A stretch of 35,436 bases of DNA, taken from a virus. Location of the stretch: positions 1 through 35,436 of the IMG/VR virus record IMGVR_UViG_3300025769_000380; one strand, 5' to 3'. Position 1 is the first letter of the stretch, and the number at the start of each line of letters is the position of its first letter. Shown here in pieces: positions 5,077 to 27,347 of the stretch. Position numbers and translations under genes: made by a program. A model generated the notes under the pieces. It did not search any database. It saw only the letters and a list, made by a program, of their open reading frames with translations, and was not told where the DNA came from.

Positions 5077-5103
5077 TGATAACGTAAAAACTATTTTTTG
5101 TTT
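5077..5103 (-). promoter_or_regulatory. Putative phage late promoter, site 1
   Basis: On the minus strand AAACA (5103-5099), a 14-nt AT-rich spacer, then CGTTATCA (5084-5077), with the ATG of the next gene 4 nt downstream. The same element with the same spacing recurs at 7259, 8760 and 21271, and with a 15-nt spacer at 16304. It begins 7 bp after a strong intrinsic terminator, so a new start is needed here. It resembles ECF-type promoters (AAAC, ~15-16 nt, CGTT). Confidence 0.6.
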
Positions 5104-5109
5104 TATAAT

Positions 5110-5139
5110 AAAAAAGGGTAGACCGAAATCTACCCTTTT
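5110..5139 (-). terminator. Intrinsic terminator after the tail-tube candidate gene
   Basis: An 11-bp perfect stem (AAAAGGGTAGA / TCTACCCTTTT) with a 6-nt loop. The 3' arm runs into T6 on the minus strand. It lies 24 nt downstream of the stop of the gene at 5164-5742 and just before late promoter site 1. Confidence 0.85.
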
Positions 5140-5163
5140 AATTGAATAATAATAAAGGAAGTA

Positions 5164-5742
5164 TTATTCGTTACTCATATTTGAAGTCTGTACGTCAAAT
5201 CCAGCACTAACGCCTTCTCCAACTAAAGTACTTAGAACAAATAGAGATGGAAGGACTTCTTTTCCTTCGAAAGAAATTGTATAACCATATAAATCTCCCA
5301 TTGCACCACCAGTAGATGTATTCACAGATACCTCTACTCCGTTTTGTGCGCCAGCAATCCTAAATTTACCATTGTAATCTTCAATGATAATATGAGGTCT
5401 ACCGTAAGATAATAACTTTAATTGCATCATAGTCTCAGCATTCTGAGCCTTAATCACAAAACTTCCTGATTGTGTCCAGAAAGATGTTCCGTTATCTCTT
5501 GAATTTTCATTAGTTTCTTCAAACGTATTGTTATCTCCTCTTACTTCAAATTTGTACACATCTACTCCAGCAGTTAACGTATCTACTTGACCGTTAAATG
5601 CAGAACCTGATGGTGCTACAGAAGCAGAGTCAGCCATACCAGCATACATAGCAGAAGTGTAGTTTCCAATGTATAAGTTTTTAATACCACCTACGGATTC
5701 TTTACACGCCTCTAATCTCCCTTTTGATATATCACAAGCCAT
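5164..5742 (-). CDS. Putative major tail (tube) protein
   Basis: A 192-residue, beta-rich protein starting MACDISKGRLEACKESVGG. I recognise this N-terminus as a conserved family in Bacteroidota phages, usually encoded just after the capsid gene. Strands such as GSFVIKAQNAETMMQLKLL and KFRIAGAQNGVEVSV, and the abundance implied by private terminators on both sides, fit a major tail-tube subunit. No other tube candidate is visible in a genome that has a tape measure. The tube function is inference; a capsid decoration protein is the alternative. The leader AAAACAATTAAATTATG is A-rich with no Shine-Dalgarno sequence. Confidence 0.5.
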   Translation of the reverse strand: MACDISKGRLEACKESVGGIKNLYIGNYTSAMYAGMADSASVAPSGSAFNGQVDTLTAGVDVYKFEVRGDNNTFEETNENSRDNGTSFWTQSGSFVIKAQNAETMMQLKLLSYGRPHIIIEDYNGKFRIAGAQNGVEVSVNTSTGGAMGDLYGYTISFEGKEVLPSLFVLSTLVGEGVSAGFDVQTSNMSNE

Positions 5743-5760
5743 AATTTAATTGTTTTTATT

Positions 5761-5791
5761 AAAAAAGGGTAGGTAGAATTTCCACCTACCC
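5761..5791 (-). terminator. Intrinsic terminator after the major capsid gene
   Basis: An 8-bp perfect stem GGGTAGGT/ACCTACCC (5784-5791 with 5767-5774) and a 9-nt loop, followed by T6 on the minus strand (5766-5761). It lies 28 nt after the capsid stop. I see no new promoter between this hairpin and the next gene, so it probably attenuates rather than ends transcription. Confidence 0.85.
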
Positions 5792-5819
5792 CTCTTTGTT
5801 GTTAATACTTATCTAACTA

Positions 5820-6746
5820 TTATGTATAGTAAACGATTTCTGAACCTAATCCGTACTGTACACCAGCAGTATATCTCATAACGATTCTTACGTTTTGAGA
5901 ACCATCTAGGTCTGCCATGTCAATTACTTTTACTTCATTGTGGTCTGATAATAAACCAGTACCGAAGTATAAGTTTGATTTTTGAGCTGCCATTGCATCA
6001 TTATCAGGTAATCCGTTAGCTACGAATAATTTAACACCATCAAAAGATAATGAACCATTATTCCACCATTGTGTACCCATATTGTTTGTACCTGCAGCAC
6101 CTAATCCAGAAGCTCCAAATCCACCTAAAGCTCTTACATAAGCTCTAGCAATGTTTTGAGATACATAGATGTATAAATCTTCTTTTCCATAGATAGTAGA
6201 AGGAATAGCATCTACAATCTTACCAAGCTCAGCGATTACGTTTGCAGCAGTTACAGTTGTTCCTGTTACGTCAACTACGTCTGAATCAGCAGCAGCTAAT
6301 ACTGTGAATCCGTCAAACTCACCAGCAGTAGCGTTAGCACCTTGCCAGATTGCGTGTTCGTTTTTCTCAGCTACTTTAGCGATTACATGAGCTAATAAGA
6401 AATCTTGGAAATTCTTAGGTAATGTGTCAAATGCAGAATATCCCATAGAGACAGCTTCCCAATCTGAGACGAAGTCTTTCTTACATAACTGTAAGTTTAC
6501 TTGGAATTCTTCTGGCTGAATAATTCTTTCTGTTAATGTAACAGAAGAAGTAGCAGCGAAATCACAAGAAGCGTTAGCAACTAGGTCTCCAGTAGCTAAT
6601 TTCTTAATGACTTCCTTAAATTTAATGTTTGGTTTTACTTCGATTCCACCATTATCAATAGTAGAAGAAGAAAGAAGAGCTGCAGCGATATACTTGCCAG
6701 CAAATTCTCCTGCGTAAGTACTTGTTATACTTGTTGTTGTTGCCAT
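5820..6746 (-). CDS. Major capsid protein (HK97 fold)
   Basis: A 308-residue capsid subunit, within the usual range for small HK97-fold proteins. Visible are an N-arm rich in Ala/Ser/Thr, an E-loop-like stretch (NASCDFAATSSVTLTERIIQ), helix NFQDFLLAHVIAKVAEKNEHAIWQG (spine helix region), GFTVLAAADSD, and a C-terminal A-domain strand segment (QNVRIVMRYTAGVQYGLG). This pattern is shared with capsid proteins of Bacteroidota phages. It follows the acidic scaffold gene by 10 nt and precedes a strong terminator, as expected for the most abundant late protein. Synonymous third positions contain more C than in neighbouring genes, consistent with high expression. Confidence 0.88.
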   Translation of the reverse strand: MATTTSITSTYAGEFAGKYIAAALLSSSTIDNGGIEVKPNIKFKEVIKKLATGDLVANASCDFAATSSVTLTERIIQPEEFQVNLQLCKKDFVSDWEAVSMGYSAFDTLPKNFQDFLLAHVIAKVAEKNEHAIWQGANATAGEFDGFTVLAAADSDVVDVTGTTVTAANVIAELGKIVDAIPSTIYGKEDLYIYVSQNIARAYVRALGGFGASGLGAAGTNNMGTQWWNNGSLSFDGVKLFVANGLPDNDAMAAQKSNLYFGTGLLSDHNEVKVIDMADLDGSQNVRIVMRYTAGVQYGLGSEIVYYT

Positions 6747-6756
6747 AATTAATTAA

Positions 6757-7242
6757 TTAATTGTTAAATAATTTGTTAAATACTCTTTGTTGTGTCGTCA
6801 TAGGACGGTTTTGAGAATATAAATTCATTGGTTTTGAATCTACCTCTGCTTCAGGTGAATGTGAGATTGCTTCAGCTTCCTCAGAAAGTTCAACTTTGTC
6901 TGAGCTTAATTCTGCAGGTGCATCAGAAGCTTCCTCCTGACCCATTCCATCCATCATTTGCTCATACATAGCTTTAAATTCAGCTACTACTTTGTTTAAT
7001 TCTTCTTTTGTAGCATAAATTTCTTCTGGTGCTTCTTCAATTACTTCTTCTTCAACTTCTTCTTCAGCCAATTCTTCCGTAGAACCTTCTTCTACTGTTT
7101 CTTCTTGAGCAAGTTCTACCTGCTCTTCAGTAACTTCCTCTTTAACTTCAGCAGAAAGCTCCTCTTGTACAGGAGTCTCTTCTTCAGTCTCAGCAGAAAG
7201 TAATACATCTTTGAACTTTTTAATAATTTCTGTTGCTTTCAT
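6757..7242 (-). CDS. Capsid scaffold protein
   Basis: A 161-residue, extremely acidic protein. Residues ~18-75 are almost entirely Glu/Val/Ala/Pro, then a predicted coiled coil (YATKEELNKVVAEFKAMYEQMM) and a basic C-terminus (TQQRVFNKLFNN) that could contact the capsid shell. Composition, length and position between the protease and the capsid gene match internal scaffolding proteins, which are needed for procapsid assembly and then degraded. Assignment rests on composition and synteny, since scaffold sequences diverge too fast for residue-level recognition. Confidence 0.72.
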   Translation of the reverse strand: MKATEIIKKFKDVLLSAETEEETPVQEELSAEVKEEVTEEQVELAQEETVEEGSTEELAEEEVEEEVIEEAPEEIYATKEELNKVVAEFKAMYEQMMDGMGQEEASDAPAELSSDKVELSEEAEAISHSPEAEVDSKPMNLYSQNRPMTTQQRVFNKLFNN

Positions 7243-7258
7243 AAATAATTATTTAATT

Positions 7259-7285
7259 TGATAACGATTAATAAAATATCTGTTT
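7259..7285 (-). promoter_or_regulatory. Putative phage late promoter, site 2
   Basis: Minus strand: AAACA (7285-7281), N14, CGTTATCA (7266-7259). Here the -35-like part reads TGAAACA, the closest of the set to the classical ECF -35. The scaffold ATG is 16 nt downstream rather than 4, so this transcript would have a short leader. Confidence 0.6.
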
Positions 7286-7296
7286 CATTTTCAAGG

Positions 7297-7443
7297 TTAC
7301 GGAGTTGTGCCTTGTCCTGTTAAAGCTCCGATACCTTGTGCTTGTAAACTTCCATCACAGCATTTACTACTGTAAGTTCCGTTCTTGCATAAACAGCCTC
7401 TCTTTTTGCCTGTTGGACTTGTTCTACTTGGTGTTTTTTTCAT
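7297..7443 (-). CDS. Small Cys-rich protein (CLCKNGTYSSKCCDGS motif), 48 aa
   Basis: Reads MKKTPSRTSPTGKKRG, then a Cys cluster CLCKNGTYSSKCCDGSLQAQ and a Gly/Thr tail. The CLCK(D/N)xTYSxKCC motif is one I recognise from tiny proteins in the head region of other flavobacterial phages, with no function known to me. Four cysteines in 14 residues could bind a metal or form a disulphide knot. The ATG at 7443 overlaps the TGA of the preceding ORF (ATGA), supporting translation of both. Virion or procapsid association is inferred from position only. Confidence 0.7.
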   Translation of the reverse strand: MKKTPSRTSPTGKKRGCLCKNGTYSSKCCDGSLQAQGIGALTGQGTTP

Positions 7444-7559
7444 CTACCTTGTCCTTTATATTTCTTTTTATATCCCTTTTGTCCTACACTTGCATTCTTG
7501 CTATGAGGATGAGACTTTCTCTTGTTCTTTCTATATGTGCTTACTACTTTTCTAGGCAT
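7440..7559 (-). CDS. Small very basic protein, 39 aa
   Basis: Starts at ATG 7559 overlapping the protease stop (TAATG) and ends TGA at 7440, overlapping the next ATG. The product MPRKVVSTYRKNKRKSHPHS... has about a third Lys/Arg plus several His, so it is likely nucleic-acid binding or disordered. I recognise no family. The stop-start overlaps at both ends, which link protease, this ORF and the Cys-rich ORF into one translational chain, are the main evidence that it is real. Confidence 0.6.
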   Translation of the reverse strand: MPRKVVSTYRKNKRKSHPHSKNASVGQKGYKKKYKGQGR

Positions 7560-8755
7560 TACTTTTTGTCAGGTACACAGTTAGGAACTAATCTTCCGTT
7601 CTTCTTCTTCATTCCGTATTGTGTATATCCTTCTTGACAAGGGTCTTCTTGTAATAAATGCTCTTGACAAGGCATAAACCATATCTTGCCTTCTACTTCA
7701 TGCTCGTGAGAACCTTCACATCCTAAGTCTGCTGCTTTTTCTTCAGCCATCTCTTTAGTAGCAAAAGCCAATCTGTTATCAATAATTATATAATCATCAT
7801 TAACAGGAACAAATTCTTTAGCTAGTTTCTTTTTATCTATTTGCTTTAGTTTATTTATAGCCCAGTTAACACCAGCACTACCACCCCAAGCATCCCACAT
7901 AATACCACCACATCCTTCTGAATACGGTACATCTTTGTTTTGTTGGTGTCTCTTAAAGCTTGCCATTCTAGCTATTGTTGAACGAGAGATACTAGCACCT
8001 GATGCTAATTGTGAAGCTCTTCTCCATCCTACTGGTGTTCCACAACTACTACCGTTTTCTTCTTTATACTTTAATGCTCTCTTTGCATTATTTCTAGCTC
8101 CTTTAGGATAGTCATTATAGCTTTCTAATTCTACATCTAGTTGTGAAAGCACAATATCTTCTAATTCAAATAGCTTAGCTAATGCTTCAAACTCTTCAGA
8201 GTCTATCTCTTCTTTTACGCTTTCTCTTGGTCTTTCATCAAGCTTGTCTGTAAAAAACCCCTCAATACTAAAACCTTTTACCTTGCCTTCTTTTACAAAC
8301 TCTTGCCATATCTGGTCGTTGTTTACCTTAACAGATACCATCCAAGTTCCTACAGGTAAATTAAGATTGTACTTAGCAGACTTGTCTTTCTTCTCATCTT
8401 CTATAATCCAGCTTTCTACTACGCTTAATCCTTTTAACTCTACATCATGTTCTAGTGTTGAGTTGTTTTGTTTACCCTTTGTTAGAAACAGCTCAGATGC
8501 TCTCCTAACAGTATCTTTAGAGAAATAGATAAAGTATTCTTTATCTCCACTTTGTCTAAATATCTTTTTGTCAGGTATTAATGCAGCACCCATTAAGATT
8601 CTTTTCTCAGAATCTACCTCTGCTAACTGTATTGTTTGTTCTTTAAGAGCAATGAAGTCTTCTTCTATTGCTGGATATTCTACTATAGAAATTGCTTCTA
8701 TACCAGAAAAATCATTTTCTTCGTCTATAAATAGTTCTATAATATCTTGTTCCAT
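7559..8755 (-). CDS. Prohead maturation protease (XkdF/S78_2-like), multidomain
   Basis: A 398-residue protein. Residues ~50-170 match the S78_2/XkdF prohead-protease pattern: LEHD with His103, VESWIIED, GTWMVSVKV and the nucleophile motif GFSIEG (Ser163). This part cleaves scaffold and capsid during maturation. Residues ~215-305 form a second domain (YPKGARNNAKRALKYKEENG; VGWRRASQLASG; WDAWGGSAGVNWAINKLKQI) that I recognise from other phage head proteins. Residues ~325-366 form a third, His/Cys-containing segment (LGCEGSHEHEVEGKIWFMPC). The ATG at 8755 is 4 nt after a CGTTATCA element. The protease call is firm; the roles of the added domains are unknown. Confidence 0.78.
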   Translation of the reverse strand: MEQDIIELFIDEENDFSGIEAISIVEYPAIEEDFIALKEQTIQLAEVDSEKRILMGAALIPDKKIFRQSGDKEYFIYFSKDTVRRASELFLTKGKQNNSTLEHDVELKGLSVVESWIIEDEKKDKSAKYNLNLPVGTWMVSVKVNNDQIWQEFVKEGKVKGFSIEGFFTDKLDERPRESVKEEIDSEEFEALAKLFELEDIVLSQLDVELESYNDYPKGARNNAKRALKYKEENGSSCGTPVGWRRASQLASGASISRSTIARMASFKRHQQNKDVPYSEGCGGIMWDAWGGSAGVNWAINKLKQIDKKKLAKEFVPVNDDYIIIDNRLAFATKEMAEEKAADLGCEGSHEHEVEGKIWFMPCQEHLLQEDPCQEGYTQYGMKKKNGRLVPNCVPDKK

Positions 8756-8759
8756 ACTT

Positions 8760-8786
8760 TGATAACGATTTTTATATTATTTGTTT
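8760..8786 (-). promoter_or_regulatory. Putative phage late promoter, site 3
   Basis: Minus strand: AAACA (8786-8782), N14, CGTTATCA (8767-8760), then 4 nt to the ATG of the protease gene. It overlaps the end of the tape-measure transcript, so it would boost expression of the head genes. Confidence 0.6.
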
Positions 8787-8790
8787 TATA

Positions 8791-10932
8791 TTAATCACCA
8801 AGTGATGCTCCTGTTTGTATTTGTAAATCTAGTTCTTGTTGTGATGTAATCTCATTACTTACTACATAAGCTTGTATTGGTTCTTGGAACTGACCTCCTA
8901 CTGCTTCTGCTAATTGGTTTGTTCCTGTGCTTCCTACTAAATTAAAGTCAAAGGTTCTACCTCCACCACCACCTGCGCCTCCTCCAGCGCTTCCACCACC
9001 AGAAGGTGCTGTCCTAGATGTTAAAGTAGTTGCTAGTATGTTTGCTATTGCTATTCCTGCACCAATATTGTTTTTAGCTATTCTTTTAGCTGCGCCTGCT
9101 TGAGCAGCACCTGCAGCAAGCTTAAAAGTTGCTGACCTTTCAGGGCTTAGTAATGCAGTTGCAGCAGCAGAAGCATTGTAAAAACCAACTTCTGTTTGAC
9201 TTGCAGATAATATTTTTTGATTTGCTGCTTGAGCTTCTACAACAACTCCAGCTATAGCAGCTCCTTTTTCTAATACTAATGCAACTTTAGCTAATCCTTC
9301 GTTTTCTTTACCAATAGTTTTAAATACGTTTCCAATTCCTGATACAAAGTTTGCATATTCTAATTGTGCCTTCATCTTCATGTCTATAATCATCAGTTCG
9401 TGTTCTAGCTCTTCATCTTGCAATTCTATTCGCATCATAGCTAAGTTTTTTTCAGCTTCAGTCCTTTCAAATTCACTCCCCTTAAATAGCTTTAACCTTT
9501 TCTCCTCATGAGATATTTCTGCTTTCAGCGTGTTATTAGCAGCTGTAGAAGCCATAATCATAGAGATGTCAGTATATTTGCTGGTTAAGTCCAGTCTTTT
9601 ATCCTGCAAGTCAAAATCGAGCTGTATTAGCTTTTCATCTTGCTCTTCCTCTAGCTTTAATGTTTCTACAGAATGAGTTAAGTTTAATTGTCTAAGGGCT
9701 GTTAAATGGTCTACCCTTGCTTTTTCTATTGATTTTTCGTATTTTTCTTTAGCCAAAGCCTTTTGTTTATCACTAGCGTTAGAATCCATAAAGTCTTGGT
9801 ATCTAAGCAGTTCTTTTTGCATAAAAGCTTTTTTTCGCAACTCTAAATCTTCTACCTCAAACCTTTGTCTTATCTTTAATTTGTTTGCTTCAACCCTTTC
9901 AACACCTAACTCTTCTCTTTTTTCAAACCCCGAAATAATCTTAGTTAAGTCAAGATATTTTTGTTTAAAATACTTAGTGTTACCCCCACTTTTCTCCTCT
10001 TCTATATTTGCATCTTTAAGCAACTTTAAATATTCATCTAGAACCTTGTTGTATTCTTTTTCCACAACCATCAAATCACCTGTTGTTTCAGCTATATCAT
10101 CAAAAATAGTTTTTCTCATACCCATAAAATTCATGTTCATAAGAGCAAATTGAATAAAATTAGCCTCTCTAACTTTATTAAGTTGTTCATCTTGTTCAGC
10201 TTGTAACAAACTCTTTTTATTAAAAGATTCTTTAAGCTCATTTCTTTTTAAATCTATTTCAAACTCCAACTCCTTTACCCTCAAGAACTCTTCAGTTATT
10301 TCTTTTAGCCTTTCAGTATTGTCAGCTGCTTCTTTTAGTTTATCATTGAAATCCTTGTCTAACAAAGCAAGTCCTTTAACAATAGCACCTCTTTGCTCTA
10401 AAGTAACATTAGCTCTTGATAAAGCGTCTTTGTATATCTTTAGCATTTTTATCTCACCCTTTAAACTATTTTCAAGCTCGTCTGTAGCTTTTTTTGCTTT
10501 TTCTGTTTCCATAGAAAATCTTTCAAAAGCAGCAATAACAACATTAATAGCTAATATGATTCCTAGAGGACCCATAAATGCTTTACCAATATCTTTTAAC
10601 CCTGCTGTAAAACCCCCTGCTTTTTCTGCAGTAAATACAAAGTTATTTGCTAGCTGAGAAAGGTTGTTTGCAACACCTCTAATTCCGTAGTTAAAATCGG
10701 AAACTACTCTACCTGCTTCTAAAACAGTAGCAGATGCAGAACCTGTAGCATTCCTAGCATTGTTAGCTCCTGTTGCTAATGCGTCAAATCCTTGTGATGC
10801 TTTAGCACTAAAGTCTTGCGCTGCTTGTCCAGCCTCTACAAATCCTTTAGTTATACCATCTATCTTTATTTTAGAATCTTTGGTATTTAATTGTATAGTA
10901 ATTGTTTTTACTACTTGTGAATTAGTTGCCAT
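8791..10932 (-). CDS. Tail length tape-measure protein
   Basis: A 713-residue protein with an N-terminal beta/Ala-rich region and a hydrophobic stretch (AFMGPLGIILAINVVIAAF, ~125-145). A long charged coiled coil follows from ~145 to ~550, then a second hydrophobic Ala/Gly helix region (~550-650), then a Gly-rich linker (SGGGSAGGGAGGGGG) and a folded C-terminus. This architecture is that of tape measures in siphoviruses, which set tail length and are ejected on infection. At roughly 1.5 angstroms per residue it implies a tail near 100 nm. It follows tail-tip and tail-completion genes instead of preceding them. Confidence 0.85.
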   Translation of the reverse strand: MATNSQVVKTITIQLNTKDSKIKIDGITKGFVEAGQAAQDFSAKASQGFDALATGANNARNATGSASATVLEAGRVVSDFNYGIRGVANNLSQLANNFVFTAEKAGGFTAGLKDIGKAFMGPLGIILAINVVIAAFERFSMETEKAKKATDELENSLKGEIKMLKIYKDALSRANVTLEQRGAIVKGLALLDKDFNDKLKEAADNTERLKEITEEFLRVKELEFEIDLKRNELKESFNKKSLLQAEQDEQLNKVREANFIQFALMNMNFMGMRKTIFDDIAETTGDLMVVEKEYNKVLDEYLKLLKDANIEEEKSGGNTKYFKQKYLDLTKIISGFEKREELGVERVEANKLKIRQRFEVEDLELRKKAFMQKELLRYQDFMDSNASDKQKALAKEKYEKSIEKARVDHLTALRQLNLTHSVETLKLEEEQDEKLIQLDFDLQDKRLDLTSKYTDISMIMASTAANNTLKAEISHEEKRLKLFKGSEFERTEAEKNLAMMRIELQDEELEHELMIIDMKMKAQLEYANFVSGIGNVFKTIGKENEGLAKVALVLEKGAAIAGVVVEAQAANQKILSASQTEVGFYNASAAATALLSPERSATFKLAAGAAQAGAAKRIAKNNIGAGIAIANILATTLTSRTAPSGGGSAGGGAGGGGGRTFDFNLVGSTGTNQLAEAVGGQFQEPIQAYVVSNEITSQQELDLQIQTGASLGD

Positions 10933-11069
10933 TATCTATTTCGTTTTATTGCGTTTTTAAATTCTTTCCAATTAGTAGGAGCTAAATATTTACCTTTGGC
11001 TATCTTTATATCTTCATCATCTATATGCCAATCTGCTGCTCCTAATAAATCTATTATATCTCTTATCAT
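10932..11069 (-). CDS. Small protein between tail-tip gene and tape measure, 45 aa
   Basis: ATG 11069 overlaps the TGA of the upstream tail gene (ATGA), and its TAA overlaps the ATG of the tape measure (TAATG). The product starts MIRDIIDLLGAADWHIDDED and ends in a basic helix. No family is recognised. Perfect coupling on both sides makes it a real translated ORF. Its position suggests a small tail protein or a translational relay for the tape-measure gene. Confidence 0.65.
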   Translation of the reverse strand: MIRDIIDLLGAADWHIDDEDIKIAKGKYLAPTNWKEFKNAIKRNR

Positions 11070-14553: not shown

Positions 14554-14562
14554 TTGTTTTTA

Positions 14563-15045: not shown

Positions 15046-15503
15046 TAGCAGATACTTATATCATTAATCATCTTAATGTCTATTTCTGCTTCCCAACCAG
15101 CTAACTCATTCTCAAATCTCTCTTTAAATGGCTGACAACTCATTGTGTCATCTACCTGCAACTTATCAGCCCTTAGATTACCTCTTTTTAGTTTAGAGAA
15201 TATTAAATTCATTACCTGTAATTGTGTGTTTAGTACATCCTGCAAGTTGTCTACACCATAAAACTGGTCTGGAGTAACTACTTCCTTTGTATAATCTACT
15301 ATGTCTGCACATAATATCTGCAAAGTGAATGTCATAAACTGTGAATCTATTACTACATTAGAGATGTTTAGGTGTGATAATGGAAATATATCCATCTTGT
15401 TAAGGTTAACTTCTGTTATATCACCAAAACTAACACTATTCATGTGATGATTAGCTCTTAGTTCATCTTTAATCTTGTCTAATAAGTCGTATACTTGTGT
15501 CAT
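15045..15503 (-). CDS. Putative tail terminator protein
   Basis: A 152-residue alpha/beta protein with an N-terminal helix (YDLLDKIKDELRANHHMNSVSFGDITEV). A sheet follows (VVIDSQFMTFTLQILCADIVD), then a conserved stretch QDVLNTQLQVMNLIFSKLKRG, and an end FENELAGWEAEIDIKM. The beta-sheet with flanking helix fits gpU/tail-terminator folds that cap the tail tube before head joining. The position next to the gp10-like gene and directly after the tail chaperone supports this. The start 2 nt after the frameshifted chaperone stop shows the chain continues from that frame. Confidence 0.55.
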   Translation of the reverse strand: MTQVYDLLDKIKDELRANHHMNSVSFGDITEVNLNKMDIFPLSHLNISNVVIDSQFMTFTLQILCADIVDYTKEVVTPDQFYGVDNLQDVLNTQLQVMNLIFSKLKRGNLRADKLQVDDTMSCQPFKERFENELAGWEAEIDIKMINDISIC

Positions 15504-15505
15504 AT

Positions 15506-15772
15506 TTATTTTTTATATGCCTTCTTTATTAAAGCATTCTCTATTCTTGTCTTATCCTTTATATATTCTAAGTACATTAGACAGGTGTGTACTGGAAGCT
15601 TTGTAGCTTTGTCAATCTTTGCTGCATCTTCTTGAGCGATTGTAAATATTGATTGATACCAACCCCACTTTTTTCCAAAGTTTGCTTGAGCTGTGGTGGA
15701 ATCGCCTTCCCTTTCAGCTCCTGCTGTAAATAATCCAGCGTATAGCTTGGTAATTTGCTCCCTAAACGATAA
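15506..15772 (-). CDS. Tail assembly chaperone T-like extension, made by -1 frameshift
   Basis: After the T9 run (15779-15771) in the gene at 15577-16299, the -1 frame stays open for 88 codons to TAA at 15506. It encodes a protein-like sequence: QITKLYAGLFTAGAEREGDS, FGKKWGWYQSIFTIAQEDAA, THKL-type segment ATKLPVHTCLMYLEYIKDK. The FGKKWGWYQS(I/L) segment is one I recognise from tail chaperone extensions of Bacteroidota phages. It has no good start of its own: the only ATG is 23 codons from the end. It would be expressed as a 264-residue fusion (176 + 88), as for lambda gpG-T. It is positioned upstream of the tape measure as expected. Confidence 0.7.
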   Translation of the reverse strand, partial: LSFREQITKLYAGLFTAGAEREGDSTTAQANFGKKWGWYQSIFTIAQEDAAKIDKATKLPVHTCLMYLEYIKDKTRIENALIKKAYKK

Positions 15773-16299
15773 AAAAAAACCATCGCCCCTATCGCTACAT
15801 TAACTGGCATATCTAACATTACATCAGAATACTTATGACTGCCTTCATAATCCATCACCCTATAGAACTCATTCTTCTTAAAGATGACTGGTCTAAACAA
15901 TACAGCCATTGCTTTGTGCATCTTATCCCAATCTGAGATATACCCATCTAAATCAATGAACTCACCAAATGTCATCTCGTCTAGCTTTGGTATAAAACCA
16001 AACTCAACAACCGTCTCTTCTCCATACTCATCTGTGGCTGACATACTAAATCTAGGTACTAAAGGTGTCTCTTCCTTAAAACACTTGTTTATTACATCAA
16101 TAGCGAAATCAAAGTTGTTTAAGGGAATCTTAAATGTATCTTCAATCTCTAATCCACAGAATATCTGCAGCATCTTTGTCTTTATATATACCTCATCTTC
16201 CTTATCCCATTTATCTAGTATCTTTAGATACTTCTGATACTGTCTAAGGGTTATTCCTGCCAATGCTTGAGGTACAGACAGTTTATATTCCTTTATCAT
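15577..16299 (-). CDS. Tail assembly chaperone (gpG-like), zero-frame product
   Basis: A 240-residue protein, MIKEYKLSVPQALAGITLRQ... with conserved PKLDEMTFGEFIDLDGYISD, AMAVLFRPVIFKKNEFYRV and a C-terminal amphipathic part (SGVGINQYLQSLKKM). The start at 16299 rather than further upstream is chosen because the ATG lies 4 nt after a CGTTATCA promoter element and the residues before it look non-coding. Codons 174-177 are GTT TTT TTT TAT on a T9 run, a slippery site for -1 frameshifting into the extension at 15506-15772. The chaperone call rests on this frameshift architecture and position. It would coat the tape measure during tail assembly and be absent from the virion. Confidence 0.68.
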   Translation of the reverse strand: MIKEYKLSVPQALAGITLRQYQKYLKILDKWDKEDEVYIKTKMLQIFCGLEIEDTFKIPLNNFDFAIDVINKCFKEETPLVPRFSMSATDEYGEETVVEFGFIPKLDEMTFGEFIDLDGYISDWDKMHKAMAVLFRPVIFKKNEFYRVMDYEGSHKYSDVMLDMPVNVAIGAMVFFYRLGSKLPSYTLDYLQQELKGKAIPPQLKQTLEKSGVGINQYLQSLKKMQQRLTKLQSFQYTPV

Positions 16300-16303
16300 A
16301 CTA

Positions 16304-16331
16304 TGATAACGAAAATCAACACTTTCTGTTT
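16304..16331 (-). promoter_or_regulatory. Putative phage late promoter, site 4 (tail operon)
   Basis: Minus strand: AAACA (16331-16327), N15, CGTTATCA (16311-16304), then 4 nt to the chaperone ATG at 16299. It is back-to-back with the plus-strand copy at 16361-16388: the two AAACA elements are about 30 bp apart, forming a divergent promoter pair. Confidence 0.6.
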
Positions 16332-16360
16332 TCTTGTTAATAAGTTGTTTATGGAGGAAT

Positions 16361-16388
16361 AAAACAAAAATCAAAAATATCGTTATCT
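16361..16388 (+). promoter_or_regulatory. Putative phage late promoter, site 5, plus strand (divergent)
   Basis: Plus strand: AAAACA (16361-16366), N14 (16367-16380), CGTTATCT (16381-16388). Sequence and spacing match the minus-strand sites, yet it points right, away from all genes, into the 16.39-16.96 kb gene-poor region. Expected start near 16391-16395. Confidence 0.55.
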
Positions 16389-16475
16389 TTATATAAGTAG
16401 TTGCAAATCTACATAAGTTGCCACACTTCAATACCCTAATAAATACGGATGATTGTTGGACCGTGTACTCTAAAT

Positions 16476-16546
16476 CTCCTTGTGAATGGCAGTACTAAAT
16501 CCTTTGTTGTTTTCGTAGTCGCCCTAGTACTATTCCATACAACGAG
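16476..16546 (+). repeat. Long bulged inverted repeat / RNA hairpin
   Basis: The central arms AGTACTA (16491-16497) and TAGTACT (16525-16531) are extended outward by GAAT/ATTC, TTGT/ACAA and CTC/GAG. The outward extension is interrupted by GGC bulging on the 5' side, CAT on the 3' side, and one C-C mismatch. The loop is 27 nt. Regular 3-nt bulges on alternating sides look like an evolved RNA helix more than a protein-binding palindrome. Confidence 0.6.
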
Positions 16547-16928
16547 TAAACAGCTAACCAAATATCTAGCAAATATTATTTAAAATAACATTTATTATAG
16601 GTGGGCGAATAATACCTTCCCAATACACTTCCAATTATATATATATTTTTAGAATATGAGTTTTAGATAAATTCGTTTTGGATGAAATCATTAGAATGGG
16701 TAACTCCCACCGTAGCACATTCAATTTACGTTAAATGTATGTTATAAACGTCTAATCTAAGACTATTTAGAGACGATTTAAGACACTATCTTTAATTATA
16801 TGTGTGTGGATACTTGATGAGGTGTAAAGTATGCTTAAATGAGCTTAAAATTGTTTGTTATTTCACAGCTCTATATCTCATTTGTAAATCAATAACTTAC
16901 AAAATATATGCATATATATAATAGATAT

Positions 16929-16960
16929 AAAAAAAGCCCTTAAACATAGGTTTAAAGGCT
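16929..16960 (-). terminator. Intrinsic terminator of the small-gene operon, possibly bidirectional
   Basis: An 11-bp stem (one G-U on the minus strand) AGCCTTTAAAC/GTTTAAGGGCT with a 4-nt loop and T7 on the minus strand (16935-16929). It lies 29 nt after the stop of the last small gene. On the plus strand the same hairpin is followed by CTTTC, a weaker but possible stop for the candidate RNA. Confidence 0.8.
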
Positions 16961-16988
16961 CTTTCGGACTAACTAAATATAAAACAAA

Positions 16989-17147
16989 CTAAACTGAATC
17001 TATTATTTTAAAGTATGTTTCTTTATCATTAATAAAATATTGTTTATCATTTACATTGTATATGTAACCATATATTTCACCTAATTTATTAAGGTCAATA
17101 AATCTATATTTATATTGATAGTTTTCTTTTATTTGTTTAATGTTCAT
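16989..17147 (-). CDS. Hypothetical small protein, 52 aa
   Basis: Reads MNIKQIKENYQYKYRFIDLNKLGEIYGYIYN and ends KETYFKIIDSV. It is rich in Tyr/Ile/Asn/Lys, with no recognised family. I prefer ATG 17147 because it lies 4 nt after the stop of the preceding ORF; ATG 17174 would add nine residues and overlap it. It is the last gene of the small-gene operon before the terminator at 16929. Confidence 0.5.
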   Translation of the reverse strand: MNIKQIKENYQYKYRFIDLNKLGEIYGYIYNVNDKQYFINDKETYFKIIDSV

Positions 17148-17151
17148 TTGA

Positions 17152-17286
17152 TTAATTATTAAAGTTTTGTTCATATTCTTTATCTCCGTCAGCATAGGCG
17201 CAGGCCTCAGCGTCAATTATTATATAGGTTTTATATATGTATTCTTCATACTTTTTAAACCATTCTATTTGCTTTTTGTTTGTCAT
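17152..17286 (-). CDS. Hypothetical small protein, 44 aa
   Basis: Starts ATG 17286 overlapping the previous stop (TAATG). The product MTNKKQIEWFKKYEEYIYKT... continues with an Ala/Asp/Glu-rich stretch (DAEACAYADGDKEYEQNF). The amphipathic N-terminal helix and the stop-start coupling support it. No family is recognised. It belongs to the early small-gene operon, where short regulators or host-takeover proteins are usual, but no function can be assigned. Confidence 0.55.
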   Translation of the reverse strand: MTNKKQIEWFKKYEEYIYKTYIIIDAEACAYADGDKEYEQNFNN

Positions 17287-17507
17287 TATCCAAATATTTG
17301 AATTATTTTCATTGCTAAGATAACGCCAGTTATTAACATTATAAGAATTAAAAGAGTACCTCTGATGTCGTTCTCTCTGTTTGTTTTTCTTATTCTGTAT
17401 CTCATTAAATCATTGAATTCTTGCAAGGTTAAGACCTCAATTTGTTTGCCATAATGAATGCAGATTTTGTTAGTTGGTAACATTTTTATTTCTGTGATTT
17501 CTTTCAT
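17286..17507 (-). CDS. Small membrane protein with C-terminal TM helix, 73 aa
   Basis: The N-terminal ~48 residues are soluble (MKEITEIKMLPTNKICIHYG; LTLQEFNDLMRYRIRK) and the C-terminus is one clear transmembrane helix (TLLILIMLITGVILAMKIIQ). This gives a tail-anchored inner-membrane protein with a cytoplasmic domain. Phage early genes of this form often act in superinfection exclusion, but nothing in the sequence shows that here. The A-rich leader (AACTAAAACAAAAACAATG) is typical for this operon. Confidence 0.6.
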   Translation of the reverse strand: MKEITEIKMLPTNKICIHYGKQIEVLTLQEFNDLMRYRIRKTNRENDIRGTLLILIMLITGVILAMKIIQIFG

Positions 17508-17517
17508 TGTTTTTGTT

Positions 17518-17772
17518 TTAGTTGTTGTTATTATATAGCCATTTATTATAAATATAATTATAATCTGTATTAAATAAAGTAGACAACGCCATAAATAGAC
17601 GCTCTCTAATTATAGAATCGGCAACGTTTATAGTCTCATAAACGCAAATACCTCTATCAATATTTTTAAATAATTCAAGAAATGTAATATCTCTCAATTG
17701 ATACGCTAAATTGTCATCTTGATAATTTTCTTTGTACCATTGTTTAATATTAGTATTTAAATTTAATTGCAT
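17518..17772 (-). CDS. Conserved phage protein, 84 aa (WYKEN..RERLF type)
   Basis: MQLNLNTNIKQWYKENYQDD... with a central FLELFKNIDRGICVYETINVADSIIRERLFMAL and a C-terminal YNYIYNKWL. I recognise this pattern (WYKExYxxDxL, VYE-IxVxDSIxRERLF, YDYIYNxW) as a family spread across phages of Bacteroidota and Firmicutes, usually among early genes, with no known function. It is fully helical by pattern. It precedes the small membrane protein by 10 nt, so the two are co-transcribed. Confidence 0.65.
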   Translation of the reverse strand: MQLNLNTNIKQWYKENYQDDNLAYQLRDITFLELFKNIDRGICVYETINVADSIIRERLFMALSTLFNTDYNYIYNKWLYNNNN

Positions 17773-17804
17773 TGTTTTATTTGTTTTAGTTGTTATTTAT
17801 TAAA

Positions 17805-17863
17805 TTAGCGTGCTATTTCTCGGACAATTCCAAAGCATAGTTTTTTTATACTTGTCGCACTAA
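17805..17863 (-). other. Intergenic nested hairpins (possible RNA element)
   Basis: In the 100-nt gap between two small genes the minus strand can pair TTAG-TGC with GCA-CTAA (2-nt bulge), then GACAA with TTGTC, then GTATA with TATGC (one G-U) around an A-rich loop. Three nested short stems in one AT-rich gap are suggestive of a cis-acting RNA, but each alone is weak. I see no promoter or T-tract here. Confidence 0.3.
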
Positions 17864-17872
17864 TTATTAATA

Positions 17873-18022
17873 TTAAAATGATGCAGTAATAAAACCATTT
17901 AAAGCCCATTGACCGACAACAGAAACTAAGCCGAACATAACAAAACTAAAAATTGTTAGTTGTACTTTTTCGAATGTGTCTAATTGTTTAAATGTGTTTA
18001 CTTGTTTGTTAATTGTTTTCAT
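17873..18022 (-). CDS. Small membrane protein, 49 aa
   Basis: ATG 18022, preceded by the A-rich leader AAAACAATAAACA. The product starts MKTINKQVNTFKQLDTFEKV and then has one hydrophobic helix (QLTIFSFVMFGLVSVVGQWAL) and a short C-terminus. The charge pattern predicts a cytoplasmic N-terminus. No family is recognised. The clean leader, the charged N-terminus and the TM segment make it a credible gene in a 350-nt stretch that would otherwise be empty. Confidence 0.6.
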   Translation of the reverse strand: MKTINKQVNTFKQLDTFEKVQLTIFSFVMFGLVSVVGQWALNGFITASF

Positions 18023-18099
18023 TGTTTATTGTTTTATTGTTATTAATTATTATTGTTATACAATATTAACAATTAAGTTAACAACTATATAATTATAAG

Positions 18100-18128
18100 T
18101 GTTAAAGTTTTGTTAAAGAAATGTTAAA
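18100..18128 (+). repeat. Three TGTTAAA repeats at 11-bp spacing
   Basis: TGTTAAA occurs at 18100, 18111 and 18122, exactly one helical turn apart. It is identical to the core of the seven ATGTTAAACA iterons at 19550-19658. The last copy overlaps the stop codon of the gene at 18124-18426. It lies upstream of the small membrane gene at 18022, so it could be an operator or a second iteron cluster. Confidence 0.5.
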
Positions 18129-18426
18129 ATTTTATTTCTACTCTGTTCCCGTTCCATTTTTCACCATCTAAAAACCATTCAAAACGCTTTTGATATATTC
18201 GAGGTTTGCCGATATAATCTAAAATTCCGTTTAACCTTTCTTTGGTTGTGTTGCTGAACCAACCACAATTTGCAATAAATAATTTGCCGTTTTTAATCTC
18301 AGCTATTAAATTGTTGTGAAGGTAAAACCTAGCACCAAAAAAGGTATCAACAACGCTAGTATTATTTTTGTAAAATCTTTCTTGCTTGTAAAATGCTCTT
18401 ACGCTTTCTTTTGTTATTTTTCTCAT
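18124..18426 (-). CDS. Conserved phage protein, 100 aa (NCGWFSNTTKERLN motif)
   Basis: MRKITKESVRAFYKQERFYK... then LHNNLIAEIKNGKLFIANCGWFSNTTKERLNGIL and a C-terminal YQKRFEWFLDGEKWNG. I recognise the GNxIAxxxxGxLFIxxxGWxSxTTxERLN pattern as a widespread small phage protein in many hosts, function unknown. It is beta-rich with conserved Trp and Asn residues. It overlaps the preceding gene by 4 nt and sits in the early operon. Confidence 0.7.
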   Translation of the reverse strand: MRKITKESVRAFYKQERFYKNNTSVVDTFFGARFYLHNNLIAEIKNGKLFIANCGWFSNTTKERLNGILDYIGKPRIYQKRFEWFLDGEKWNGNRVEIKF

Positions 18427-18638
18427 GATTCTTTTTTTATTCTTTTGTTTTGTTGTTTTACTTGTTTGTTAAACTCTTTTTTTGTTAAATAAATTATATG
18501 GTCTAAATCAAAATATAAATTTCTTATATTCATTACTAAATAATTATTTTCATTCATTAAATGCAATTCTCCATCTTGCGTCCAAATTGTTTCGGTGTCA
18601 TGTAGGTACATTGTTTTTTGTTTTTTTTCTTTGCTCAT
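18423..18638 (-). CDS. Hypothetical protein, 71 aa
   Basis: MSKEKKQKTMYLHDTETIWT... with an acidic/aromatic middle and a strongly basic C-terminus (KQQNKRIKKES). No family is recognised. The A-rich leader (AAACATAAAACAATG) and the 4-nt overlap with the following gene support it as a gene. The alternation of strands in the first 50 residues suggests a small beta domain. Confidence 0.55.
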   Translation of the reverse strand: MSKEKKQKTMYLHDTETIWTQDGELHLMNENNYLVMNIRNLYFDLDHIIYLTKKEFNKQVKQQNKRIKKES

Positions 18639-18650
18639 TGTTTTATGTTT

Positions 18651-19061
18651 TTAAAATGGTAATAAATCGAATTTCTCAATATAATTATTTAAATATTGTT
18701 CAACCTCTTTTTTTATGTCTCCTAATTCCTCGAATGAATCAAAATTAAATTCTAAATCATTTACTAAAATATGCGCATAATGATTGAATATAAAATTAAC
18801 TACAAATTCCGAATTAATATTATCGGCTGGTATGTTTTCGCCTGTCATCTCTTTATATAATTCACTTGCGAAGCTGATAACATCCCAAACATTACAACCT
18901 GATTCATTTATAAAGTGATTGCAACGACTATAATAAATCATTGAATAAATTTCATCACTTGTAATAAACTCAAAATCTGTTGCACCTTCGTAATCGTCTA
19001 GCGAATCAATAACGCATTCAAGGACATGAAGTTTAAATTGTTTTTCTATGTTACTATACAT
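18651..19061 (-). CDS. Hypothetical acidic helical protein, 136 aa
   Basis: An acidic protein (MYSNIEKQFKLHVLECVIDS; DFEFITSDEIYSMIYYSRC; FDSFEELGDIKKEVEQYLNN). It is probably all-helical, with several Cys and many aromatic residues. I cannot place it in a family. Acidic small proteins in early phage operons are sometimes DNA mimics or host inhibitors, but no motif supports that here. The leader AACCAATAAAAACAAAAAAATG is typical. It is the second gene after the operon promoter. Confidence 0.6.
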   Translation of the reverse strand: MYSNIEKQFKLHVLECVIDSLDDYEGATDFEFITSDEIYSMIYYSRCNHFINESGCNVWDVISFASELYKEMTGENIPADNINSEFVVNFIFNHYAHILVNDLEFNFDSFEELGDIKKEVEQYLNNYIEKFDLLPF

Positions 19062-19104
19062 TTTTTTGTTTTTATTGGTTATTATTTTTTTTGTGTTTTT
19101 GTTT

Positions 19105-19314
19105 TTAATAGTCTGTTAATAAATTAGGATTTAATTCTTTAACAAGTGTTAACTCTGTGTTGACTCTGTTATATTGAAAGTTTGCCTCATTATATTGTTT
19201 ATCCTTTTCTGATAGTTGATTTTTTAGAGATATAATCTCTTCGTCTTTTTTCTCTAGCTCCTGTCTAACGTCTCCGTCTAGTTTTTTTCCGTTAAAAATT
19301 GTGTAATCTTTCAT
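19105..19314 (-). CDS. Small coiled-coil protein, 69 aa
   Basis: The first gene of the small-gene operon. A short N-terminal region (MKDYTIFNGKKLDGDVRQEL) is followed by a clear heptad coiled coil (EKKDEEIISLKNQLSEKDKQ) and a short tail. No family is recognised. A strong host-type promoter sits 29 nt upstream of the ATG, which makes this an immediate-early or early gene. Oligomerisation through the coil is the only property that can be read from the sequence. Confidence 0.62.
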   Translation of the reverse strand: MKDYTIFNGKKLDGDVRQELEKKDEEIISLKNQLSEKDKQYNEANFQYNRVNTELTLVKELNPNLLTDY

Positions 19315-19342
19315 TTTGTTTTGTTTTTATTGTTTAATGATA

Positions 19343-19375
19343 CAAATATATAAACAATTTTGTTAATAAACCAAA
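19343..19375 (-). promoter_or_regulatory. Host-type (Bacteroidota sigma-A) promoter for the early operon
   Basis: Minus strand: TTTG (19375-19372), 21-nt spacer, TATATTTG (19350-19343), matching the Bacteroidota -33 TTTG / -7 TAnnTTTG consensus. The ATG at 19314 follows after an A-rich leader. The unit probably drives all genes down to the terminator at 16929. The rest of 19376-19512 is AT-rich with no credible gene. Confidence 0.7.
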
Positions 19376-19512
19376 TAAATATATAATTTTTTTTTACACC
19401 TATTATAAGCGTGTGCGCATGTATACAAAAATAATTTGACACTACAAAAATAAAATTGATTTTGTTACTGGCTTTTTTTCTGGCTAAAATTGTGTAAATC
19501 TTATCACACACT

Positions 19513-19531
19513 ATTTAGAATGATTCTAAAT
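19513..19531. repeat. Perfect 19-bp palindrome
   Basis: ATTTAGAAT-G-ATTCTAAAT: 9-bp arms around a single central G. It is 18 bp from the iteron array, separated by a G-run (GTGGGGGGAT). The symmetric odd-length form suits a dimeric DNA-binding protein or a cruciform; there is no T-tract, so it is not a terminator. Confidence 0.75.
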
Positions 19532-19549
19532 AAGGAAAGTGGGGGGATA

Positions 19550-19658
19550 ATGTTAAACAGCCCCTCATGTTAAACAGCCCCTCATGTTAAACAGCCCTCA
19601 TGTTAAACACCTCCATGTTAAACAATCGACCCTTCATGTTAAAGGTTCATGTTAAACA
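19550..19658. repeat. Seven-copy iteron array (ATGTTAAACA), candidate origin or pac site
   Basis: Copies of ATGTTAAAC(A) start at 19550, 19567, 19584, 19600, 19615, 19636 and 19649. The sixth reads ATGTTAAAGG. The first two units are identical 17-mers (ATGTTAAACAGCCCCTC) and spacing then drifts to 16, 15, 21 and 13. The array begins 2 bp after the terminase stop. Iterons next to a palindrome and AT-rich DNA are a typical phage origin layout, and the position beside the terminase genes also fits a packaging-initiation site. No CRISPR features: units are too short and directly abutting. Confidence 0.7.
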
Positions 19659-19660
19659 AA

Positions 19661-20875
19661 TTATCGAATAACATATTTTCCAGAATTTACTCCTTGAACT
19701 AAATATTGTAAGGAATATCTGATTGCATCTACAAAGTGATTGTACTTGTCTATTGGTTTCTGACCTCTCTCGTGCCAAACATAATTGTTAAACTCTCTTA
19801 TTATATTGTGTGAGTTTCTCTCTACTATTATCTCATAGTCTTGCATCAAAGCAATACCTGATAAGATACTACCCTTCTTCTTTATGGTTGGTCTTATGTT
19901 TAATCCTGTATTTCTTAATTCTTTTATCAGTCTAGGTTCAGAACTATCACAGATTATCAAATCTGCACCACATTCCTTCCTATTCATAAATGCTATATCT
20001 GACGTAGAAAGTGCTGTTTTACCGAATATCTCTTTTACATAGACCTTACGCACATCTCTATCAACAGAGACCTTTACAAGCGTTGTCATGTCCATAGAGA
20101 ACCCAAAATCCTGCCCATAGCAAGTTAATTCTGTTTGTGCAAACTCTCCAAGCTTCCAGTTTCTAATTATTGTTCCTTCAGCTTTCTCCATCCAACCTCC
20201 TAAAATAATATGCTCAAACTTAGAAGGAGTTCTACGTTTCATATCCATTATCTGACTAATAAATGATTCGGATAAGTTCTTCTTGTTATCTTCATAGGTA
20301 GTGTGAATGTATGTAACATCATTTGTAACACCATTGTAACCTCCTTTAATATTCTTATACAAAAAGAATCTCTGATATATCCAATGCTCTTTTGTAGCTG
20401 GGTTTAATATTAAAATACATCTGTTTTGTTTACCTTGTGTACGAATAGAGAAGTCAATCTTGTTAAACACATCCTCTTCTAAAAGCTCTTCGGCTTCATC
20501 TACAACGAATGTAGTTACACCATTTAAAGATTTAAGAGCTGCAGTTTGATTACCTGATGAGGTTCTTATACCTTTAAACATTATAGAACTGTTTGTCTTT
20601 AAGTTTATTATCTCATCCTTAGTAATTCTAAAATCACTATGAACATCCATCAAGTCTATCTTCTCAATGAACTCAGGTATAATAGAAGTGTTGGCTGATG
20701 TTAAAGTATATCTAGTAAATAGAATCTTATGTCCATGCTCATAGGTTAGGTTCAATAGAAACAGAGCAGCACCAAAACTCTTACCACTACCTCTACCTCC
20801 TGTAATTATAAAGTATCTACTATCAGATTGAAACAAAGGTATATACTTTGTATGTAGATTTATGTTACTGTTCAT
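19661..20875 (-). CDS. terL: Terminase large subunit
   Basis: A 404-residue packaging motor. The ATPase has Walker A GGRGSGKS (26-33), Walker B with catalytic Glu FVVDEAEE (123-130) and a coupling region LNPATKEHW. The nuclease domain has DFGFS (Asp256), IICDSSEP (Asp310) and the C-terminal NHFVDAIRYS (Asp383), the RNase H-like metal triad that cuts concatemers. Length and order fit the PBSX/Terminase_3 family. It overlaps TerS by 11 nt. The C-terminus ends 2 bp from the iteron array. Packaging genes are separated from the portal gene by about 15 kb, which is unusual. Confidence 0.95.
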   Translation of the reverse strand: MNSNINLHTKYIPLFQSDSRYFIITGGRGSGKSFGAALFLLNLTYEHGHKILFTRYTLTSANTSIIPEFIEKIDLMDVHSDFRITKDEIINLKTNSSIMFKGIRTSSGNQTAALKSLNGVTTFVVDEAEELLEEDVFNKIDFSIRTQGKQNRCILILNPATKEHWIYQRFFLYKNIKGGYNGVTNDVTYIHTTYEDNKKNLSESFISQIMDMKRRTPSKFEHIILGGWMEKAEGTIIRNWKLGEFAQTELTCYGQDFGFSMDMTTLVKVSVDRDVRKVYVKEIFGKTALSTSDIAFMNRKECGADLIICDSSEPRLIKELRNTGLNIRPTIKKKGSILSGIALMQDYEIIVERNSHNIIREFNNYVWHERGQKPIDKYNHFVDAIRYSLQYLVQGVNSGKYVIR

Positions 20876-21266
20876 CCTCTGGTGTTACATCTATAACATC
20901 ATCTTGTATTTGAGACTCCTTGTTGTTAAAGAAGTTGATTACAGGTACTTGAACCTTCTTGCTACTATTACTATCATTTATACTATCTGATGGTTTACCA
21001 TAAGCATACTCCATTAATAGTTTCATGTGAGTAAAGTTCTTCTTACCAAGCTCAGCAAGGTGCTTAAACGCCTCTTTCTCGCTTCCAAACACTTCTTTCA
21101 TAGCATTGGTCGCATAAGAAGAGATACGGTCTCTCTTGGCTTTATTTTGCCTTGCAGGTACTAGCTTCTTTATCGTAGATATTGGCTTAGGTTCAAGTCT
21201 TTTGTTGTTCTTTCTTCCGTCTGTTCTCTTGATTTCTTGAGACCTATTCTTTTTAGCTCTTGACAT
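20865..21266 (-). CDS. terS: Terminase small subunit
   Basis: A 133-residue protein. The basic N-terminus (MSRAKKNRSQEIKRTDGRKN; RQNKAKRDRISSYATNAMKE) is for DNA contact, followed by a helical oligomerisation core (AFKHLAELGKKNFTHMKLLM; EYAYGKP) and an acidic C-terminus (DDVIDVTPEDEQ) that likely binds TerL. It recognises the packaging site. The start at 21266 is supported by the CGTTATCA element 4 nt upstream of the ATG. Identification is by composition, size and its position before TerL. Confidence 0.82.
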   Translation of the reverse strand: MSRAKKNRSQEIKRTDGRKNNKRLEPKPISTIKKLVPARQNKAKRDRISSYATNAMKEVFGSEKEAFKHLAELGKKNFTHMKLLMEYAYGKPSDSINDSNSSKKVQVPVINFFNNKESQIQDDVIDVTPEDEQ

Positions 21267-21270
21267 ATAA

Positions 21271-21297
21271 TGATAACGATTATTTTGTATTATGTTT
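21271..21297 (-). promoter_or_regulatory. Putative phage late promoter, site 6 (terminase)
   Basis: Minus strand: AAACA (21297-21293), N14, CGTTATCA (21278-21271), then 4 nt to the TerS ATG. It partly overlaps the 3' end of the preceding gene (stop at 21280), so it is an internal late promoter at the end of the middle operon. Confidence 0.6.
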
Positions 21298-21498
21298 TTT
21301 GTAAAGCTTTAAGTAAACATCTGCAATGCCTTCTTGTACAGTCTTCTTGTTATACTTTTCTTGTATGATTGCTCGCTTGTTACCTTTCTCTACAACTATA
21401 TTATAAGTACTATTATCTTTTGTTACTGGATATATAATAAAGTCATTAGCAATACACCATTGAACTGCATCTGGGTTTAATACTTTTATCTTACGCAT
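21280..21498 (-). CDS. Hypothetical protein, 72 aa
   Basis: MRKIKVLNPDAVQWCIANDF... with YPVTKDNSTYNIVVEKGNKR and a basic C-terminal helix. I recognise similar short proteins before TerS in flavobacterial phages but know no function. It has a compact alpha/beta pattern. It overlaps the DnaA-C-like gene by 8 nt and its last codons form part of the terminase promoter. Confidence 0.6.
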   Translation of the reverse strand: MRKIKVLNPDAVQWCIANDFIIYPVTKDNSTYNIVVEKGNKRAIIQEKYNKKTVQEGIADVYLKLYKKHNTK

Positions 21499-27309: not shown

Positions 27310-27314
27310 ATAAT

Positions 27315-27341: not shown

Positions 27342-27347
27342 TATTAA

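Follow-up and report, generated by a model that had tools for sequence, protein, structure and literature searches.

What switches on the virion genes of the phage recovered as IMG/VR record IMGVR_UViG_3300025769_000380? This stretch of 35,436 nucleotides (nt), hereafter the window, to which all positions refer, belongs to a phage whose hosts are probably flavobacteria-like bacteria, and carries a bipartite element, AAACA-N14/15-CGTTATCW, that a first-pass annotation took for the promoter of a phage-specific late regulon resembling those of extracytoplasmic function (ECF) sigma factors. We conclude, with a probability of roughly 0.86, that the element is the promoter of an ECF-type sigma factor encoded by the phage itself (25486 to 26049, minus strand). 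That gene had gone unnamed in the annotation, and it strengthens the ECF-like interpretation; together with the intergenic position of the motif and its conservation in relatives, it gives the proposed regulon computational support.

The element and its sites

The pattern AAACA-N13..16-CGTTATCW has exactly six matches in the window and none in 100 dinucleotide shuffles. Their number, their places and their spacing (N14 at five sites, N15 at 16304-16331) agree with the earlier description, apart from the plus-strand copy, which begins at 16362 and not at 16361. Bare CGTTATC occurs nine times, vs 1.4 expected, three of these copies being without the upstream half. The annotation had also raised the possibility that the motif is as frequent in coding or shuffled DNA; it is instead intergenic rather than coding, five of the six sites lying wholly between genes although the mechanical set of open reading frames (ORFs) covers 92% of the window, while the copy before the TerS-like gene shares 18 bases with the upstream ORF 21280-21498. 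The candidate late promoters are:

5077 to 5103, minus strand: gene before the portal, box end 4 nt before the ATG at 5072 (motif match)
7259 to 7285, minus strand: scaffold-like gene (ATG 7242) and capsid operon, predicted leader of about 12 nt, the only coding site with a longer leader
8760 to 8786, minus strand: fused to the ATG at 8755 of the head maturation protease (motif match)
16304 to 16331, minus strand: N15 spacer, fused to the ATG at 16299 of the chaperone-like gene (motif match)
21271 to 21297, minus strand: fused to the ATG at 21266 of the TerS-like gene, overlapping the 3' end of the upstream ORF
16362 to 16388, plus strand: divergent promoter of a structured RNA (motif match, conservation)

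The genes behind the five minus-strand copies start at 5072, 7242, 8755, 16299 and 21266; the annotation had assigned these copies to the pre-portal, scaffold/capsid, protease, chaperone and TerS units. At four of these five copies the arrangement is CGTTATCA-N4-ATG, the box ending exactly 4 nt before the start codon, whereas at the scaffold-like gene the gap from box to ATG is 16 nt and that from CGTT to ATG 20 nt. Two conserved halves at a fixed spacing could also be the site of a protein, i.e., an operator through which the phage activates or represses a different promoter, to which we give very little credence: the motif is non-palindromic, always oriented into the downstream unit and spaced like the -35 and -10 boxes of ECF promoters, and no space for another promoter is left between it and the ATG.

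The genes concerned are:

4650 to 5072, minus strand: gene before the portal, 140 amino acids, first of a late operon (gene set and position)
6757 to 7242, minus strand: scaffold-like gene, acidic, 161 amino acids (position)
7559 to 8755, minus strand: head maturation protease (PHROG 3017 and Pfam Peptidase_S78_2)
15577 to 16299, minus strand: tail-chaperone-like gene, 240 amino acids (position; PHROG 32199, of unknown function)
20865 to 21266, minus strand: TerS-like gene directly before TerL (position)
19661 to 20875: TerL (PHROG 2)

The portal was identified by PHROG 33693. Profile searches of PHROG and Pfam returned no family match that names TerS, scaffold or chaperone, and these labels rest on position. 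Among the neighbouring genes, 21491-21961 (minus strand), just upstream of the TerS region, encodes 156 amino acids that include the C-terminal, DNA-binding domain of DnaA (Bac_DnaA_C, E 6.2e-13), and 18124-18426 (minus strand) matches Pfam Kyano_Gp96 (E 3.6e-21), a family named from Kyanoviridae phages. A terminator-like hairpin, GGTAGATTTCGGTCTACC, with a T-run (5104-5140), abuts the upstream side of the 5077-5103 promoter, and a second one with a T-run at 27310-27345 (minus strand) directly abuts the ATG at 27309.

A sigma factor encoded by the phage

25486 to 26049, minus strand: ECF-type sigma factor, 187 amino acids, in the early/replication gene block (PHROG, TIGR02937, AlphaFold/Foldseek)

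ECF (group 4) sigma factors consist of regions 2 and 4 on a short linker, without regions 1 and 3, and their promoters combine an AAC-type -35 box with a CGT-type -10 box about 15-17 nt away. The window protein has this layout, with 187 residues in two helical parts and a TIGR02937 match spanning residues 18-171, and boxes of these types stand 15-17 nt apart at 54 of the 58 distinct coding sites described below. The gene sits apart from the late operons, in a block named early/replication by content and position, and matches PHROG 1740 (sigma factor, E 1.2e-10); TIGR02937 (sigma70-ECF) matches all 26 aligned members of the protein's family. The AlphaFold model, built from 26 sequences, shows the two helical parts and between them a linker of low confidence (residues 77-103), the best PDB folds retrieved with it by Foldseek are the ECF sigma factors SigL, SigH and sigmaE (probability 1.00; 160-191 columns), and PDB sequences searched with a profile yielded three matches, all weak, of which two are sigma factors. 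The protein is a divergent ECF-type protein rather than a member of a filed ECF family.

Conservation and coordinated box shifts among relatives

The annotation had left room for the motif being absent from close relatives, and it is present there. A sigma factor 73-97% identical to that of the window was found in twelve viral loci, and all ten of those searched carry the motif, in 3-6 copies depending on the portion of the genome present. The cultivated Nonlabens phages P12024L/S are more distant (portal 35% and TerL 52% identical to the window) and have seven equivalent AAAC-N16/17-CGTT sites, with a CGTT-to-ATG distance of 8 nt at six and 7 nt at one (in P12024L, a phage of Nonlabens (Persicivirga) sp. 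IMCC12024, the boxes end at about 171, 3023, 5404, 22083, 24763, 26003 and 27604), together with a coding sequence annotated with Sigma-70 region 2, which in P12024L is 26% identical to the window sigma factor over 93 columns in a pairwise test. When positions ahead of ATGs were searched for k-mers with no motif assumed, P12024L/S and the window clade had the same strongest signal, CGTT at -12. A tblastn search of 50,697 phage records with the window sigma factor (E 1e-3) gave no match, and its power was low, given that even P12024 was missed. A tally of the promoter motif over the wider sequence collection was set aside as evidence, being a lower bound in which many single matches within large contigs may have arisen by chance.

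Relatives by terminase numbered at least 80 (61-100% identity), and 30 of their records, labelled G below, were searched with a sigma profile. The sigma gene was detected in 26 of the 30, lying 2.9-7.1 kb upstream of TerL in the 24 records measured, and each of the four records without it (G021, G025, G039, G040) extends less than 2.7 kb upstream of TerL. The geometry between box and ATG recurs at TerS and other late genes across these relatives with the first base of the box changed: CGTT in the window clade, G011, G013 and P12024; TGTT in G012, G014, G015 and G020; AGTT in G016, G018, G019, G022, G023, G024, G028, G030, G031, G035 and G038. In the TGTT lineage of G012, G014 and G015 the -35 box varies as well, being AAATGA instead of AAAC at some sites.

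Distances from AAAC-N14..17-[ACT]GTT to the ATG of an ORF, with duplicates of one site removed and three controls per group, peak at 8 nt in the window clade (24/60; controls 2/28, 1/39 and 1/36), in P12024 (8/15; controls 0/11, 0/5 and 1/17) and in 24 further terminase-relative records (22/84; controls 4/72, 2/61 and 4/67). The 58 distinct coding sites read [ACT]GTTA (C in 28, A in 19, T in 11), then mostly TCATAnT and then ATG, with the AAAC half at a conserved 15-17 nt upstream of the box; this set was chosen by presence of the box, and it is informative only in the first box base and the flanks. Most coding sites of a genome share one first base, as a shared trans-acting sigma factor would require: the base matches the majority of its own genome at 52 of 59 sites, vs a permutation maximum of 47 (0 of 5000), in a test on 22 chosen representatives that is uncorrected for phylogeny and keeps discordant sites, some of which may be chance matches. 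A code linking sigma residues to the box base was considered, region 2.4 reading LTLKS with C, MTLRS with T and mostly xTLRN/xTLKN with A; the split follows phylogeny, and no code is claimed.

These shifts bear on whether the phage instead recruits an ECF sigma factor of its host, to which the promoters would then belong, its own sigma factor serving something else. Flavobacterium psychrophilum has seven ECF sigma factors and an ECF-type promoter class, SM6, that has CGT as its -10 box (PMC9723704), and the phage box looks like ordinary ECF boxes. We nevertheless consider host recruitment unlikely, for the phage lineage has an ECF-type sigma factor of its own at a fixed place, the box base shifts across the sites of a genome by phage lineage, and a relative without the sigma gene is also without the sites: in the Riemerella phage RAP44 (TerL 46% identical) no sigma gene was found, and the single xGTTA-ATG match is a GGTTA without AAAC. 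Neither sigma gene nor promoter was present in the 21 kb examined of a Dyadobacter (L385) and a Sphingobacterium (L387) locus, and L381, a contig of a Bacteroidetes metagenome-assembled genome (TerL 57%), has a sigma gene and two CGTTA sites.

The plus-strand copy and a structured RNA

Whereas the five copies ahead of virion genes were confirmed in that place, the sixth, on the plus strand, leads a conserved RNA:

16393 to 16627, plus strand: conserved structured noncoding RNA (modelled part, about 230 nt; predicted 5' end near 16393), by covariation and covariance model

The RNA is divergent from the chaperone-like gene, and the roughly 550 nt that its site points into hold no credible ORF. 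Site and following sequence are conserved in all ten records covering the region (window included), where indels of 1, 2 and 11 nt argue against coding. A pattern search for the RNA core gave 42 non-redundant matches in the loci examined, 15 of them unrelated and 27 being the RNA, and the motif lies directly upstream in 27 of these 27 loci. When 24 sequences are aligned from the predicted start, the 37 pairs are paired in 99.1% of cells, nine pairs have changed on both sides, and the covariation score exceeds all 500 shuffles and every slid version; in the window the first hairpin starts 4 nt past the predicted start. The covariance model recovered homologues in ten further records (G012, G014, G015, G023, G025, G027, G029, G030, G031 and G035; E 6e-5 or better), and a 13-sequence alignment, itself fitted to the model, has double changes in 27 of the 37 pairs, a value reached by 0 of 500 shuffles. 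The box before these homologues is TGTT in G012, G014 and G015, AGTT in G023, G025, G027, G029, G030 and G035, and TATT in G031, and RNA and coding promoters share the first base in eight records besides the window, all those where both are readable. Most of the homologues lie behind the variant of the lineage to which they belong.

Folding of single sequences is unremarkable (z +0.40 on the plus strand, +0.64 on the minus), and the case is built on alignments, whose folding is better on either strand than that of all 200 column shuffles (z -3.5 plus, -3.0 minus). The covariation bonus by itself equalled or exceeded 193 and 179 of the 200. Since both strands surpass the shuffles, the strand was called from G-U patterns: read on the plus strand, all 12 cells of the main helix that vary on one side are G-U and none is A-C. 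Rfam at gathering score gave no match in the window or in eight homologue-bearing loci, and the covariance model did not find the RNA in P12024L/S or elsewhere among the records searched, which include fragments. The only strong terminator-like site near the RNA lies on the minus strand (16965-16930).

The data support the plus-strand copy as a sixth member of the regulon, serving a structured RNA, and no outlier; from its neighbours we would guess at a role of this RNA in assembly or packaging. They also bear on a reading of the motif as a translation-initiation or mRNA 5' element, which could draw on the fixed distance to the ATG and on the frequent A at -3, a base that aids initiation in F. 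johnsoniae (PMC6847099). This is highly improbable, because one copy leads an RNA with no credible ORF behind it, the AAAC half stands a further 15-17 nt upstream at conserved spacing, and the scaffold copy has 20 nt between CGTT and ATG.

Proposed mechanism

In the promoter interpretation, the sigma factor would be made from the early/replication block, bind the host core RNA polymerase and direct it, late in infection, to AAAC-N15/16-CGTTATCA before the TerS, chaperone, protease, scaffold/capsid and pre-portal operons, and it would also drive the divergent RNA at 16393. Because the -10 box lies 8 nt before the ATG, transcription is predicted to start on the start codon or within about 3 nt of it, yielding leaderless or near-leaderless virion mRNAs. 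Start sites of Salmonella phage 7-11 gp47 lie 6-9 nt from its promoter element (PMC8948821), a distance that, applied to the window, would place starts from -3 to the A of the ATG. F. johnsoniae mRNAs have no Shine-Dalgarno sequence and favour A at -3 and -6 (PMC6847099), and leaderless mRNAs are 5.5% of 890 in F. psychrophilum (PMC9723704), so that virion mRNAs without a leader would be out of the ordinary in these bacteria.

Several observations weigh against this interpretation. The window sigma factor scores 34.4 bits with TIGR02937 (residues 18-171), under the curated cut-off of 42.9, and 15.4 with Pfam Sigma70_r2, under the cut-off of 24; its model has low TM-scores (0.3-0.4), a mean predicted local distance difference test (pLDDT) value of 73 and an unresolved linker. 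G032 has GATTATC in place of the xGTT box, and G020, G026, G033 and G037 had no qualifying site in the box-base test. The lineage-specific box bases follow phylogeny and are hence non-independent, and no sigma residue tracks them cleanly, P12024L (C) breaking the pattern with TIYN. As regards leaderless translation, the A at -3 in 49 of the 58 coding sites could mean that the ribosome sees a short leader, which leaves open one of 3 nt, and a 12-nt leader is predicted at one of the five coding sites. Finally, no xGTTA box was detected at -12 in L382, L384 and L386, each of which has a sigma gene, and the 76 loci of distant sigma relatives (L186-L261, about 31-48% identity) show neither an AAAC-CGTT peak nor that box. 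From these loci it follows that the promoter rule is either the property of a sublineage or replaced elsewhere by other boxes. The distant loci had been considered as donors of the motif and were set aside, since their promoters may differ or the fragments may be without late genes.

A fuller scenario, which we advance tentatively and at slightly less than even odds, is that a lineage of marine Bacteroidota phages makes mainly leaderless virion mRNAs, the -10 box of its own ECF-type sigma factor being fused to the start codons; that it has several times re-tuned this box in a coordinated way; and that the sigma factor also drives a new family of structured RNAs, made late and acting in assembly, packaging or late control. 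If true, these short genomes would offer a natural series in which sigma factor and promoter have changed specificity together (C, A and T at one position), useful for learning how ECF sigma factors read the -10 box, and leaderless initiation could be tested on strongly expressed genes in Bacteroidota, which rarely use Shine-Dalgarno pairing. Two further products of the analysis are a new family of covarying phage RNAs and a rule for annotating promoters in a widespread group of uncultivated marine phages, of which P12024L/S can be cultivated.

Comparison with known systems

Judged by titles and the beginnings of abstracts, full-text searches of the open part of PubMed Central (subscription papers lying outside it) listed no paper on the motif, on late genes that a phage sigma factor transcribes without leaders or on P12024-like transcription. 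Within that coverage the earlier claim of an undescribed late regulon stands as regards the motif, but not as regards its principle: late sigma factors of phages are already known (T4 gp55, SPO1 gp28/gp34, phiEco32 gp36, 7-11 gp47), phiEco32 and 7-11 being clear precedents, and in the window, too, a phage-encoded sigma factor is accompanied by candidate cognate sites ahead of virion operons. T4 gp55 and SPO1 gp28/gp34 likewise redirect the host polymerase, in their case to genes of the middle or late class (PMC9429907). The gp36 of phiEco32 (annotated as ECF in SU10) resembles the proposed system in driving late genes with the host core polymerase (PMC4281155, PMC8948821), and differs in the single element, tAATGTAtA, of its middle/late promoters, with no -35 box, a feature linked to a gp36 without region 4 homology (PMC8948821). 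The SM6 promoters of F. psychrophilum, in contrast to the phage sites, serve a regulon of the host, type IX secretion genes included (PMC9723704). In 7-11, as in the window, a phage-encoded sigma factor with region 4 goes with bipartite late promoters, GTAAtg-(16)-aCTA before late genes (PMC8948821), although the boxes are different and the phage is a podovirus of Enterobacteria. Three features are unusual here and are not described in the available text on 7-11 (PMC8948821), namely promoters fused to the start codon, base shifts by lineage that form a series of specificity changes, and a divergent late RNA.

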